This document shows positions 576 through 5,399 of a stretch of 23,469 nt of DNA, piece by piece. Below the pieces are notes generated by a model. The model saw only the letters and a list, made by a program, of their open reading frames with translations. It was not told the origin of the DNA and made no database searches. Position numbers and translations under genes: made by a program. Source of the stretch: a virus. How positions within the stretch are numbered: position 1 is the first letter of the stretch; the number at the start of each line of letters is the position of its first letter. Location of the stretch: positions 1-23,469 of IMG/VR virus record IMGVR_UViG_3300007276_000316, one strand, 5' to 3'.

Positions 576-992
576 TTAAAATAATCTCCACACTTTCCAA
601 CCGACTAATGCGGCTAGTGTTACTATTATAATATACCACCATGCCCAGGAAGGCGTTTTATATACTATTATTGTTTCCACGCTTGTAACCTCTTTAATCA
701 CTTCCTTGTCTACGTAAACGATTGAGTCGGTCTTTGATTGTACAAATAATTGATTGTCTTTTACGGTTACCGTTGTCTTTCCGTTTCCGTTGTCTATGGT
801 CTGGGTAAACTCTTTTGGTTTTCCTATTGAATCGCATAGTGTAGATATTTGCAATGTGTTCTTGGATTCTAATATGATATTCCTAACGGTTGAATCTTTT
901 ACCTTTTCTACGTATGTACTTTGCTTTTTTGCTTTGCAACCAAACAAAAAAAATACCAATAAGTAAAATAACACTACTTTAAATTTATTCAT
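576..992 (-). CDS. Candidate unimolecular spanin (lipoprotein with C-terminal TM)
   Basis: A 138-aa protein begins MNKFKVVLFYLLVFFLFGC, a lipoprotein signal with lipobox LFGC and Cys19 as the lipidated residue. A hydrophilic, Thr/Lys/Val-rich segment of about 95 residues follows, then a single C-terminal membrane segment (about 117-135, WAWWYIIIVTLAALVGW) with a short basic tail WRLF. An outer-membrane lipid anchor plus an inner-membrane C-terminal helix is the architecture of u-spanins such as T1 gp11 (131 aa), which fuse inner and outer membranes in the last step of lysis. I chose the ATG at 992 over an in-frame ATG at 1034 because 992 puts the signal peptide at the N-terminus and matches an 8-nt overlap with the upstream small ORF. 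A holin candidate and M15 peptidase lie upstream on the same strand. The topology is direct reading; the function is inferred. Confidence 0.72.
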   Translation of the reverse strand: MNKFKVVLFYLLVFFLFGCKAKKQSTYVEKVKDSTVRNIILESKNTLQISTLCDSIGKPKEFTQTIDNGNGKTTVTVKDNQLFVQSKTDSIVYVDKEVIKEVTSVETIIVYKTPSWAWWYIIIVTLAALVGWKVWRLF

Positions 993-1137
993 CGTTTCTA
1001 TCTTTAACGCACACACAAGACGCACACTTGACATTGTACTTATTACAGTATATTATACCTATGTCGCTTTGTTGGCTCTTAGTTCCTACGGCTGTACCGT
1101 TTCTAAGGCAATTTGAAAAGTATTGTCTAAAAGTCAT
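985..1137 (-). CDS. Small Cys-rich protein, 50 aa
   Basis: The ORF runs from the ATG at 1137 to a TAA overlapping the spanin start by 8 nt (the TAA lies inside ATGAATAAA), which suggests translational coupling. The product has five cysteines, Cys10, Cys31, Cys38, Cys41 and Cys43, with the last three in KCASCVC. That spacing could hold a metal ion, but no known zinc-finger pattern fits cleanly. It has no signal peptide or membrane segment. It is preceded by an AT-rich leader with no SD. The function is unknown. The coupling to the next gene is the best argument that it is translated; the short length leaves real doubt. Confidence 0.5.
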   Translation of the reverse strand: MTFRQYFSNCLRNGTAVGTKSQQSDIGIIYCNKYNVKCASCVCVKDRNDE

Positions 1138-1243: not shown

Positions 1244-1771
1244 TTAGATATTTTTTTCAATGGTTAATTTACATCCAAACATAGATAATACTGTAATTAG
1301 TCCTGACAAATTAATATTGTCTTTTCCTTGCTCTATTTTACGTATAACCGTTAAAGCTACTCCGCATCTACTTGCAAAATCATCTTGTTTTAATCCCGTT
1401 TTTCTTCTTTTTTCTTTTACAAAATTACCAATTAATTTTATTCCTGAATAATCAATTTCATCTAATTCTGGCGTTATAGATAAAGGATGCACTAAGTTTG
1501 AATTTAGTAATACAGAACCTTTTTCAAGGTGCTTTTTAATTAGCGTGTATTCAACAGCATCAATATCTTCCTGTTCAGAAACATAATATAAAACATCAAT
1601 TATAGGGGTATGCCCAAATGTTTTTAATTCTTCTACCCATATTTGTATTTTTTTTGAATGAGAGTTATTTAAATGCTGGCTAGGTCTCATCATTCCATTT
1701 GTTGATTTTCCTATATAATGAACCTCATTAGTAAAAGGACATCTTAAAGCATATATTAATCTATTTTTCAT
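1244..1771 (-). CDS. GIY-YIG nuclease domain fused to Xre-type HTH
   Basis: The 175-aa protein has two parts. Residues 1-92 read as a GIY-YIG domain: LIYAL (Tyr7), HYIGKS (Tyr19, Gly21), MRPSQHL (Arg29, His33), VEYTLI (Glu74) and LLNSN (Asn90), so all the residue classes used by GIY-YIG nucleases for catalysis and metal binding are present. Residues about 112-172 are an Xre/HipB-like helix-turn-helix: IGNFVKEKRRKTGLKQDDFA, then SRCGVALTVIRKIEQGK. The DNA-binding domain could target the nuclease or make it a regulator of its own or late transcription. It sits between lysis-region small genes, reads in the same direction and has no clear TAnnTTTG promoter in the 65 nt before the start. Both domain calls rest on visible motifs; the biological role (homing-type nuclease, defence, or regulator) is open. 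Confidence 0.75.
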   Translation of the reverse strand: MKNRLIYALRCPFTNEVHYIGKSTNGMMRPSQHLNNSHSKKIQIWVEELKTFGHTPIIDVLYYVSEQEDIDAVEYTLIKKHLEKGSVLLNSNLVHPLSITPELDEIDYSGIKLIGNFVKEKRRKTGLKQDDFASRCGVALTVIRKIEQGKDNINLSGLITVLSMFGCKLTIEKNI

Positions 1772-2066: not shown

Positions 2067-2300
2067 TTAGTCGGTAAAACCAAAACCAGATAGCATTAAG
2101 TCAACCTTTATATCTATTTCTTCTTGTATAATAGAACAATATTCGTATAATTCCCTAACTTCAAAAGCTTTTAGCGTTTCTCTAAGGTCGTTAATAGTAC
2201 CACCTCTTAACCATATTCTAAAAGCCTCTTCTTCTGGAAAGTTCTTCATAAACATAATAGGGTCAATTAAATGTTCGTACTCTTCATCTATTGGTATCAT
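2067..2300 (-). CDS. Small acidic hypothetical protein, 77 aa
   Basis: The ORF starts at an ATG overlapping the stop of the upstream M15 peptidase gene by 4 nt (ATGA), so the two are probably translated as a coupled pair. The protein is strongly acidic and mostly helical (FPEEEAFRIWLRGG, then LRETLKAFEVRELYEYCSII). It has no signal or membrane helix and no catalytic motif I recognise. The coupling suggests a partner or modulator of the endolysin, but this is inference from position only. Confidence 0.65.
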   Translation of the reverse strand: MIPIDEEYEHLIDPIMFMKNFPEEEAFRIWLRGGTINDLRETLKAFEVRELYEYCSIIQEEIDIKVDLMLSGFGFTD

Positions 2301-2839
2301 ATCTTTATAGCTTTTTCAAAGTGCATTGTGTCGTAGTTTTTCTCTTTACCTAGATTAAGAAATCCGTACTTTTCAAAGATTCTAAACATCTCTTTATATT
2401 CAGTATTAGAAAACTTAGCCTTTTTAAATGGTGTTCTTAAACCGTTTCTTTCAGGGTCTAAATCAATCGCTATTCCCCAACTATGTCTTGACCAATCTGA
2501 ACCGCCTCGCATTTTCCTAAAGTTGAAACACCCGCCAAATAAATCTATACCTAATTGTTGTATCTTAATTATACCGTACGCCTCTTGTAGTTCGTAGAAT
2601 ATATTTAAGAAATCAGCAGCAACAGATTTGTGACACCTCATTTTATTTACAACAATATCAGTATCCCAAGATAAACGCATTGGATAAGGTAATTGAATTG
2701 TAGCAAGATAATCAGGGTTTTCTTGTGGGTTTCCATATATACGCTTTAATTCACTTGTAGTGGCAAACCTATATTTAGGTTCGTCTACTATTGGATTGCT
2801 ATCCAAAAACCATTTAATAAAAGGTGGTATGTATCTCAT
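2297..2839 (-). CDS. M15-family peptidase, phage endolysin
   Basis: The 180-aa protein carries the zinc peptidase signature of the VanY/L-alanyl-D-glutamate peptidase family: SRHSWGIAIDLDP (His119, Asp126) and the C-terminal DTMHFEK (His173). In this family these three are the zinc ligands, and the enzyme cuts peptide crosslinks or stems of peptidoglycan. There is no signal peptide, so release through a holin is expected. The length matches single-domain phage M15 endolysins, with an extra ~100-residue N-terminal part that may help wall binding. It overlaps the next gene by 4 nt and lies about 2.3 kb downstream of the holin candidate, with two structural genes and a PAS-like gene between. The family call is firm; exact bond specificity is not readable. 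Confidence 0.88.
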   Translation of the reverse strand: MRYIPPFIKWFLDSNPIVDEPKYRFATTSELKRIYGNPQENPDYLATIQLPYPMRLSWDTDIVVNKMRCHKSVAADFLNIFYELQEAYGIIKIQQLGIDLFGGCFNFRKMRGGSDWSRHSWGIAIDLDPERNGLRTPFKKAKFSNTEYKEMFRIFEKYGFLNLGKEKNYDTMHFEKAIKI

Positions 2840-2855
2840 TTACCTATATTTTAAT

Positions 2856-4148
2856 TTATCTTTCTTCAATAGACCAATCTGAATCTAATTCTAAAGTGCA
2901 ATCACCTACACCTGTTTTATTTGTTACTTTCCAATATACAAAATCATTTTGATTTAATGTTACCCTAAATTTAGAGTTAAAGTAAGCAACATCACGACCT
3001 CCAGCCTGATTTGCAATTCTTCTTAATTGAGTATTTACAACCGTTTCAGAACCTCCACTATCTTTAATTAATGATATTAAATATTCTTCGTTTGCAGTTC
3101 CCTCTAAAATGAAATTAAACAACACCCCAAAATCTCTTGGTGTATTACCTAAGTGCCTTAATTTACCATCGCTTGGGGAATCAAAATGCTGTAGGTCTGT
3201 ATTAACAAAAGAACCATTTAAAGTATATGCTGTATCAGTTAAAGCTATTGAAGTTAAAACCTCGGCTGATAGGTCTGAAATACCACCCACATAAGTATTA
3301 AACAATCCATTGTTTCCTTTCCACTCACAAGATAAATCACTTGCAGATATATTAGGTGTTAAATTAGCATCTTCTGAATCGTAAACCCCATCCCTGGTTA
3401 ATTCCACTCCTTTTAATTGTAGTGTGCTTGGATTAGGAAAGTTAGCAGGAGAAAAATTTAATAAAGGTTGTAATGTTCCTAAATCACAATTAATATCACT
3501 TAAAAATCTGCTATTCATCTGAAAGGCTGTGCCTTCCTTAAATAAAGGTTCTGTCGTTGTATCGCTTAAACTACGTACTATACTTGTAGCTATTCTATAA
3601 CCACCTCTCCAAAGACCATGCAAAGTTAAAGAAGGAGAACCGCCAAACCTACCAGTACCATTCTCTAATCCCTGTCTGTAGTTAAATATATCACCTAATG
3701 AAGTACAATTAATATAGTTTATCCTAACGAACTCAAAAGCATTAAATCCCGTATCATCATATAGCTCATATACCTTAGAATTTGTACCTGTCACCTCTAT
3801 GAAGTAATCCAAACCTAATAGATTCCCAGAACCATTACCATCTCCACCTGTTGATGCAGATATAAACATAGTGTAGTTATTAGCAGAAGATGTTAGCCCA
3901 GATATGTCAAAAGAATAACCTTTTAATGTCATACCAGTAGCAGGTACTGTTATTTGAGTTGTACCTATATCTATAATACCATCAATAAAATATTCTTTAG
4001 TTGAGTCTATTACACCTCCTAAAGTAGTAGCTACGTTATCTTGGTTTACTATAACTCTTTTAAGAAAACCACCACTAGCGTCTGTATAAACACTTATAGC
4101 TACATTTTCCGTAACCTCACTTACTGTAATACTTACTATTTCTGCCAT
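2856..4148 (-). CDS. Putative tail fibre or spike protein, beta-rich
   Basis: The 430-aa protein is rich in Gly, Asn, Ser and Thr with short alternating hydrophobic stretches, as in beta-structured phage fibre proteins. The N-terminal 65 residues (SITVSEVTENVAISVYTD, then GFLKRVIVNQDN) look like a compact virion-attachment segment. The centre (STKEYFIDGIIDIGTTQITV, TGMTLKGYSFDISGL) resembles turns of a parallel beta-helix, and the C-terminal ~90 residues (RRIANQAGGRDVAYF, FVYWKVTNKTG) look like a separate trimer-forming or binding domain. There is no signal peptide, unlike the three adhesin genes upstream. Its ATG overlaps the stop of the preceding gene by one base (TAATG). No enzymatic motif is seen. 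A structural role is well supported by context; host-receptor binding is inference. Confidence 0.62.
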   Translation of the reverse strand: MAEIVSITVSEVTENVAISVYTDASGGFLKRVIVNQDNVATTLGGVIDSTKEYFIDGIIDIGTTQITVPATGMTLKGYSFDISGLTSSANNYTMFISASTGGDGNGSGNLLGLDYFIEVTGTNSKVYELYDDTGFNAFEFVRINYINCTSLGDIFNYRQGLENGTGRFGGSPSLTLHGLWRGGYRIATSIVRSLSDTTTEPLFKEGTAFQMNSRFLSDINCDLGTLQPLLNFSPANFPNPSTLQLKGVELTRDGVYDSEDANLTPNISASDLSCEWKGNNGLFNTYVGGISDLSAEVLTSIALTDTAYTLNGSFVNTDLQHFDSPSDGKLRHLGNTPRDFGVLFNFILEGTANEEYLISLIKDSGGSETVVNTQLRRIANQAGGRDVAYFNSKFRVTLNQNDFVYWKVTNKTGVGDCTLELDSDWSIEER

Positions 4149-4486
4149 TATGTAGTTATATCTTTAAGGATTAATATTTGTCCTGCAATCCATGTTTTAA
4201 CATCGCCATTAGTAAAAGTAAATTCTATATCATAATTAGCTACACCATAATAACGGCTAATCTTAAAAGTTTGTATGGTAAAACCGTTAGTACCATCTAA
4301 TACTATACCATTACCTATTGATAGCTCTTTTAATAAATCACCTCCAGAACTTTGTATATGCATTTTTATTGCAACACCTGTTAAATCTATATCTACGCCA
4401 TCTATTGTTATAGGCTTAAATGTTTTAGCAAGAAAAGTATCTCCTCTTGTTTCGTTTTCCCAATTATATGTAGCTGGTATACTCAT
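4148..4486 (-). CDS. Small Ig-like baseplate or fibre-adaptor protein
   Basis: The 112-aa protein has the pattern R-GDTF near the start (residues 14-18), then DLTGVAIKMHIQS and a terminal run of beta strands (YDIEFTFTNGDVKTWIAGQI). This resembles the N-terminal Ig-like domain of BppU-type upper baseplate proteins, a domain often used to plug a fibre into the virion. It directly precedes the 430-aa fibre-like gene with a one-base overlap, which fits an adaptor or chaperone for that protein. The resemblance is by eye; no homology search was possible. Confidence 0.5.
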   Translation of the reverse strand: MSIPATYNWENETRGDTFLAKTFKPITIDGVDIDLTGVAIKMHIQSSGGDLLKELSIGNGIVLDGTNGFTIQTFKISRYYGVANYDIEFTFTNGDVKTWIAGQILILKDITT

Positions 4487-4501: not shown

Positions 4502-5068
4502 TTATAATTCAGTTTGTACCCCGTAAAGATACGTTCTTTCATTCTTTTTTACAATCCATTTAGCAAATCTACCTATACCCATATGTCCTTCTTTATTAAT
4601 ATAACGCTCAAAAAAGAATCTTACGGTTGGGCTTTTTAATGTTTCTCTATTATTTTCAGCCCATTCTTCACCAATATCACCCGAAACTTCTTGTGTCGTC
4701 TTTGCGAAATAATTACCAGGCTTATTGCCGTAAACCTCTTCATAGGCTTTATTAAACTTAACCATCCTAAAATCTTCAATAGCTTCATCATAAATTAAAT
4801 ACCATAACGGCAATTTAATATCATTTATATTATAGCTATCCATGCTTAAAGTTATAAGCACATTATTATAGGTGTTCATTAAATCATCATTTTCATCTCT
4901 TCGCTCGCTTAAAGAAGATTCTAATAAATCATTTAATGCTACTTCTGTTAAATATAAATGTCGATAATCTAAACTTTTATACGTTAGCAATCCAAAGCTA
5001 AATACTTGCGCTATACTCCTTGTATTTTTAACTATTAAAGCGTAAATTTTGCTTATTTGTATACCCAA
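4502..5068 (-). CDS. PAS-domain-like protein beside the holin
   Basis: The 188-aa protein has a C-terminal half (about 82-186) that matches a PAS fold in order: LPLWYLIYDEAIEDFRMVKF (first strands), NKAYEEVYG (the classic helix, residues 106-114), NRETLKSPTVRFFFERYINK (connecting helix and strand) and KEGHMGIGRFAKWIV followed by TYLYGVQTE (last strands). PAS domains bind small ligands, haem or flavin, or mediate dimerisation. There is no kinase, cyclase or DNA-binding domain. Residues 5-30 are moderately hydrophobic but broken by Lys14, Asn15 and Arg17, so a membrane anchor is uncertain; residues 40-75 are helical. Its position just downstream of the holin candidate in a late operon is odd for a sensor. 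The PAS call is by pattern; lysis-timing or redox sensing would be speculation. Confidence 0.62.
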   Translation of the reverse strand: MGIQISKIYALIVKNTRSIAQVFSFGLLTYKSLDYRHLYLTEVALNDLLESSLSERRDENDDLMNTYNNVLITLSMDSYNINDIKLPLWYLIYDEAIEDFRMVKFNKAYEEVYGNKPGNYFAKTTQEVSGDIGEEWAENNRETLKSPTVRFFFERYINKEGHMGIGRFAKWIVKKNERTYLYGVQTEL

Positions 5069-5076
5069 TTATTCTA

Positions 5077-5145
5077 TTATTTAAACTCACTATATTTAAA
5101 AAAAGACACTACAAATAAAACTGTTGAAATATAAATTACTATCAT
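5077..5145 (-). CDS. Candidate 22-aa membrane micropeptide
   Basis: A very short ORF (ATG at 5145, TAA at 5077-5079) encodes a single hydrophobic helix, starting MIVIYISTVLFVVSFF, with a polar tail KYSEFK. It fills most of the 85-nt gap between the holin candidate (8 nt upstream) and the PAS-like gene (8 nt downstream). A one-helix peptide here could modulate the holin, but AT-rich DNA yields hydrophobic ORFs by chance, so this is tentative. Confidence 0.3.
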   Translation of the reverse strand: MIVIYISTVLFVVSFFKYSEFK

Positions 5146-5153
5146 TACTATTA

Positions 5154-5399
5154 TTATTTACTATTCATCCACTTGTTTACAACCATTTTAACGCCTTCAA
5201 TCGCTAACAACAAAGAAAGACAGCTAAGCATAACCCAACCATCGTTAGAATCAAGGTAAACAGGTTCTTTATTAATTACAGGTAATATAATCCTGTAAAT
5301 CATATAAAACATAAGCGTAACCCATGCCATTAAACGAAGTGCTAACCTAATCCAATAGTTAATTGATTTTTCGCTTATAAACTCTTTTATCTCTCCCAT
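5154..5399 (-). CDS. Holin candidate, two transmembrane segments
   Basis: The 81-aa protein has a polar N-terminus (GEIKEFISEKSINYW), a first hydrophobic helix at about 16-42 (LALRLMAWVTLMFYMIYRII), a short loop with PVYLDSNDG, a second helix at about 55-72 (WVMLSCLSLLLAIEGVKMVV) and a basic C-terminus (NKWMNSK). The size and two-helix topology fit a class II-type holin, which makes the inner-membrane lesion that lets the endolysin out. The late position, with an M15 endolysin and a spanin candidate downstream, supports this. No family-specific motif is visible, so another small phage membrane protein remains possible. Confidence 0.62.
   Translation of the reverse strand: MGEIKEFISEKSINYWIRLALRLMAWVTLMFYMIYRIILPVINKEPVYLDSNDGWVMLSCLSLLLAIEGVKMVVNKWMNSK

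Follow-up and report, generated by a model that had tools for sequence, protein, structure and literature searches.

A divergent PAS-like protein encoded beside a holin candidate in a Bacteroidota phage, a possible modulator of lysis

What might a protein with a single sensor-type domain and no output domain do directly beside the holin gene of a phage? This question was raised by a virus record of 23,469 bases (hereafter the window, by which the whole analysed stretch is meant), in which the head, tail and lysis genes are placed on the minus strand. The window belongs to a phage of Bacteroidota and is probably a fragment of the virus genome. An earlier note on this DNA, made from the sequence alone, had described a PAS-like domain encoded next to a holin candidate, and had proposed that it could couple lysis timing to host physiology or, alternatively, that a PAS fold had been reused as a structural part. 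The reading favoured here, to which we assign a probability of roughly 0.4, is that the protein may be an accessory of the lysis cassette that modulates the neighbouring holin in a manner resembling that of RI in phage T4.

The gene in question is a real open frame, as had been claimed in the note, in which the strand was not given. On the minus strand, from 5068 to 4502, the list of open reading frames contains a frame of 188 codons, encoding 188 aa, that starts with TTG and is immediately preceded by an in-frame TAA. From this TTG onward, the codon log-odds were above zero or near zero, and those of the other two frames were negative; the 63 residues ahead of the first internal ATG thus also look coding. 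The codon usage from the TTG matches that of the other genes, so that the N-terminus appears to belong to the protein. Its hydrophobic stretch is weak, with a Kyte-Doolittle maximum of 1.05, and the PAS-like domain corresponds to approximately positions 4505-4816 of the DNA. The segments NKAYEEVYG, ERYINKEG and TYLYGVQTE, on which the PAS proposal had been based, were all present in the protein, and nothing follows the PAS-like part, in agreement with the claim that a second or output domain is missing.

The resemblance of the C-terminal half to PAS domains was observed in different libraries. The trimmed domain matched the Pfam family PAS_4 (PF08448) with an E-value of 0.06 and 14.0 bits, short of the curated cut-off of 23.1, and the NCBIfam model sensory_box (TIGR00229) with an E-value of 0.037 and 14.2 bits against a cut-off of 22.9, most of the model being covered; its top PDB sequence was the PAS sensor 3luq (E 0.035). 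These matches are weak but specific and share one common register, and among the Pfam and NCBIfam models no PAS score of the ORF exceeded a curated cut-off. In a per-record search, PAS_4 and sensory_box matched this ORF only (E 0.002); in the other phage records covered, numbering more than 90 and including a late set of eight, the PAS models gave no match. The ORF shares with the PAS domains of PAS_4, sensory_box and 3luq the order of segments, a length of about 100 residues and an N-x-A-(Y/F)-E-x-x-(Y/F)-G motif following the first strands. It differs from them in its scores below the curated cut-offs, in lacking an output domain such as a kinase or a cyclase, and in that no cofactor-binding residue could be identified in the PAS-like domain.

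It could be argued that this region is not PAS, but another small alpha/beta domain that resembles PAS by chance. All scores lie below the cut-offs, the structure model is poor, and shuffled copies of the ORF sequence reached a Pfam E-value of 0.0015 with unrelated families, so that no single E-value proves a PAS assignment. However, three libraries gave PAS as their top match, all in one register, and from targeted controls with shuffled sequences the probability of a chance match was put at about 1 in 150 to 1 in 2,000. For one of these controls, a PAS profile was built from 53 sequences (the PAS domains of four plasmids and the query consensus). When 2,000 shuffles and 12,266 phage ORFs were scored against it, the window ORF came first, although its absolute score was poor (E 2.3) and its lead over the second-placed ORF was just 0.1 bit; in the profile comparison with PAS, 1 of 150 shuffles beat the ORF. 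The ORF thus stands above chance in both tests, with weak absolute scores, and these targeted tests are not fully independent since PAS had first been picked, in the earlier note, from the same sequence. Structure prediction, which the note had recommended, was performed with AlphaFold2 on the ORF alone as a single sequence: the order of strands and helices in residues 89-185 was compatible with PAS, but the model was uninformative at a pLDDT of 39, and a PDB fold search with it gave a meaningless result. On the sequence comparisons, the C-terminal half is quite probably a very divergent PAS domain, and a chance resemblance is rather unlikely. The PAS proposal is probably right, given several weak matches in the same register and above-chance controls, but no match passed a cut-off and no usable model was obtained.

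The gene lies directly after the holin candidate, on the same strand, and upstream of the endolysin and of a spanin candidate (Table 1). The gap of 85 nt that separates the PAS-like ORF from the holin candidate had been correctly stated, and is filled by a short hydrophobic ORF that had been missed; this putative gene is the positional counterpart of gp089 (33 aa) of Cellulophaga phage phi13:2. A frameshift fusion of this small transmembrane (TM) ORF with the PAS-like ORF was excluded by the stop in the PAS frame immediately before the TTG. Against the phrog_16200 profile, 1 of 5,000 shuffles scored above the holin candidate, a result that is not significant at database scale. The tail spike-like protein of the window showed 47-49% identity to those of the Pseudoalteromonas phages H105/1, HS1 and H103, unlike the portal, which points to Cellulophaga and Flavobacterium phages. 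For the spanin candidate, the likely start is an internal ATG (MNKFKVV...).

Table 1. Positions of the features discussed, in the window and in other phage records.
Feature	Record	Positions	Strand	Remarks
PAS-like ORF	window	4502..5068	-	N-terminus weakly hydrophobic at ~residues 10-30; linker ~35-80; PAS-like ~85-188
TM-like ORF	window	5077..5145	-	22 codons, hydrophobic; putative coding
Holin candidate	window	5154..5399	-	81 aa, two TM segments; similar to Cellulophaga phage family phrog_16200 (alignment)
Protein of phrog_1084	window	4148..4486	-	weak BppU_N (baseplate) resemblance; between PAS-like gene and tail spike
Tail spike-like protein	window	2856..4148	-	phrog_16509
Endolysin, M15 peptidase	window	2297..2839	-	Pfam PF13539, E 3.7e-11; PHROG phrog_17001, E 1.3e-54
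GIY-YIG nuclease joined to helix-turn-helix	window	1244-1771	-	GIY-YIG 24.3 bits, above cut-off; HTH_3, E 1.8e-07
Unimolecular spanin candidate	window	576..1034	-	lipobox (FLFGC) near N-terminus; C-terminal TM
Two-TM protein, 67-70 aa	L169	622-828		after the same holin-like family, in the place of the window's PAS-like gene
Two-TM protein, 67-70 aa	L176	6266-6478		as above
Two-TM protein, 67-70 aa	L178	6291-6494		as above
TM-anchored GAF-like protein	L069	4588-5214	+	just upstream of endolysin, one small TM gene between
TM-anchored GAF-like protein	L257	1432-2073	-	beside endolysin
TM-anchored GAF-like protein	L259	3447-4085 (NC_018271 8556-9194)		beside endolysin

Since no sequence homologue of the ORF was found in 50,697 phage records, IMG/VR and the GTDB genomes, relatives were sought by gene position. 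The portal of the window pointed to Cellulophaga phage phi10:1 (50% identity), in which the small membrane proteins gp096-gp098 and the protein gp099 (240 aa, with a TM segment and a coil; YPWWKKQASDGYFIIVDLNDAYEEELG) are encoded between the pectate lyase and the endolysin. A TM/coil/PAS-like protein following holin-like membrane genes was found in six Cellulophaga phages (phi10:1, phi19:1, Nekkels_1, phi13:2, phi3:1 and Ingeline_1), in all of which it carries no annotation; an annotated endolysin or lysozyme lies further downstream in five of them, and none is annotated in Ingeline_1. Besides the group of phi10:1 gp099, a second group of counterparts comprises phi13:2 gp090, phi3:1 gp11 and Ingeline_1 gp36, and the two groups (phrog_10199 and phrog_31932) are related with a profile probability of 89%. 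AlphaFold2 on Ingeline gp36 and five other rows yielded a long helix at low confidence (pLDDT 45); a BFVD search with this model re-found only Cellulophaga counterparts, at low E-values, which supports the kinship of both PHROG groups. In phi13:2 and Ingeline, the counterpart gene follows the two-TM protein that the window holin candidate resembles, and a small TM ORF lies between this gene and gp090 in phi13:2; in phi3:1, gp11 is placed directly between a TM gene and the M15 endolysin. The N-terminus of these Cellulophaga proteins is basic ahead of the TM segment (15 K/R and no D/E in phi13:2), which suggests an N-in topology with the domain outside.

The proteins of both groups (phi13:2 gp090, phi3:1 gp11, Ingeline_1 gp36 and phi10:1 gp099) are like the ORF in their place after holin-like genes, in length, and in layout, a hydrophobic N-terminus and a coil being followed by a C-terminal domain that carries the motif N-(D/K)-x-Y-(E/D). 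The position of the ORF fits theirs, with the holin candidate directly upstream and the endolysin downstream, beyond two tail genes. However, they have a clear TM segment and a very basic N-terminus, both weak in the window ORF, they gave no match to PAS models, and the similarity is not significant, the ORF ranking between 38 and 942 among shuffles and ORFs against the Cellulophaga family profile. What ties the ORF to the Cellulophaga proteins is its position, its layout and a short motif; it is not filed as a member of their family.

The position inside a run of tail-fibre genes, with the BppU-like protein and the tail spike as the next two genes downstream, could also indicate that the ORF product is a virion part, such as a baseplate or tail-fibre accessory. 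Yet in phi10:1 and phi19:1, notes of detection in virions by MS/MS are attached to the tail proteins and not to the positional counterparts of the ORF (gp096-gp099, gp105-gp108), which makes a virion role less likely and disfavours the structural alternative of the earlier note; the TM segment of the Cellulophaga counterparts also speaks against it. A place in the virion is thus regarded as very unlikely.

The pairing of the PAS-like gene with the holin is not obligatory. In a close relative of the window, record G001 (71% identity in the endolysin and 43% in the portal), the holin-like gene is followed by another small membrane protein, without a PAS-like gene, and this same small membrane protein also follows the holin-like gene in records L176 and L178. 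Co-occurrence with the holin, suggested in the earlier note as a check, was found in part: six Cellulophaga phages have a similar neighbourhood, but the same holin family also occurs in three records that have no PAS-like gene. The absence of this gene from G001, where holin and endolysin are kept, is compatible with a late-operon accessory unrelated to lysis, involved for instance in superinfection exclusion or host takeover, that came to lie between tail and lysis genes by chance. The failure to find homologues in the phage records, IMG/VR and GTDB genomes agrees with this proposal, as does fast turnover, which is typical of accessory genes of the superinfection-exclusion or host-takeover type. 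On the other hand, PAS-like and GAF-like membrane proteins recur at the holin or endolysin genes of otherwise different phages, and a function unrelated to lysis is considered unlikely.

A positional search for TM proteins near homologous endolysins returned no further PAS-like protein, and led to the GAF-like protein of record L069. In the Nonlabens phage P12024S, gp12 (53% identity) lies directly before the annotated endolysin and holin; in G050, a GAF-like protein that was found by the GAF model regardless of position has an M15-like peptidase and a holin-like gene as neighbours. Of the four aligned proteins, three matched GAF, weakly and below the Pfam cut-off (best E 0.009). All three GAF hits in the searched records (G053, G050 and P12024S) fall in lysis cassettes; lysis genes or similarity had played a part in the choice of G053 and P12024S, so that G050 is the only unbiased case. 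Like the ORF, the proteins of P12024S (gp12), G050 and G053, three other phages of Bacteroidota, have one sensor-type domain and no output domain; they have one TM segment and are encoded beside the endolysin. They differ from it in being GAF-like instead of PAS-like, and were not seen to be related to it in sequence. Judging from these arrangements, a sensor-type fold may have been placed next to lysis genes repeatedly by phages.

If the ORF product modulates the holin, as favoured here, it would be membrane-associated, with a short hydrophobic and coil N-terminus and one very divergent PAS-type domain. This domain would bind a signal or a partner and would shift the moment of holin triggering, comparable to the action of RI on holin T in phage T4. 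RI is a periplasmic antiholin that binds holin T (PMC8385771, PMC11413866); its signal is believed to be phage DNA in the periplasm (PMC8385771). The comparison concerns only how the protein would work: RI is a small holin-binding protein, whereas binding and inhibition are proposed for the ORF product. As regards the export or membrane anchoring expected of an RI-type antiholin, the ORF product has a weak hydrophobic segment (maximum 1.05). For the window phage, we infer membrane association, the membrane side, ligand sensing, holin binding and the effect on timing; putative membership of the lysis cassette is backed by position and recurrence.

The PAS-like fold could also sense nothing and serve a membrane lysis accessory as a passive module for dimerisation or scaffolding, in holin assembly or holin-spanin coupling. 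PAS domains can serve dimerisation only, and such a module would agree with the TM segment and helical coil ahead of the domain in the Cellulophaga counterparts, with the long helix of the low-confidence model and with the lack of an identifiable cofactor-binding residue. However, the fast divergence from phage to phage and the GAF-like domains in a similar place elsewhere suggest, by way of argument only, a ligand or partner that changes and not a fixed scaffold, and a purely passive role is judged improbable.

Few phages are known to time lysis by reading their surroundings, and lysis inhibition, known from T4 and later from a Vibrio cholerae phage (PMC7182436), is one of these cases. Among the papers searched for PAS or GAF together with holin or endolysin, none was, judged by title and abstract, plainly about such phage proteins. 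In a study of flavobacterial phages, TM proteins were mentioned in the vicinity of endolysins, along with a unimolecular spanin for Ingeline and a potential one for Nekkels; the term PAS is absent from its main text (PMC8776804). If PAS-like or GAF-like domains in lysis cassettes do time lysis in response to the surroundings, what Bacteroidota phages sense before lysis could be tested on a defined domain, and phi10:1, phi13:2, Ingeline and P12024S would be at hand as isolated phages. A broader and rather doubtful generalisation would be that Bacteroidota phages repeatedly equip the lysis cassette with a single sensor-type domain anchored in the membrane, PAS-like in the window and perhaps in Cellulophaga phages and GAF-like in others. 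It would read a signal and set holin firing, such proteins being environment-reading lysis regulators without a kinase or other output domain.

A role of the ORF as a spanin was also considered. An i-spanin of the Rz type would have an N-terminal TM segment with a periplasmic coiled coil and an outer-membrane lipoprotein as its partner; in the ORF the TM segment is weak, and no paired lipoprotein gene adjoins it. This role is unlikely since the window has a unimolecular spanin candidate elsewhere, at 576-1034, and does not require the ORF for it. In phi13:2 (L155, 7788-8340) and phi3:1 (L163, 6255-6807), a small TM gene overlapping a lipobox-like gene was observed after the endolysin, and this overlapping pair is likely a two-gene spanin.
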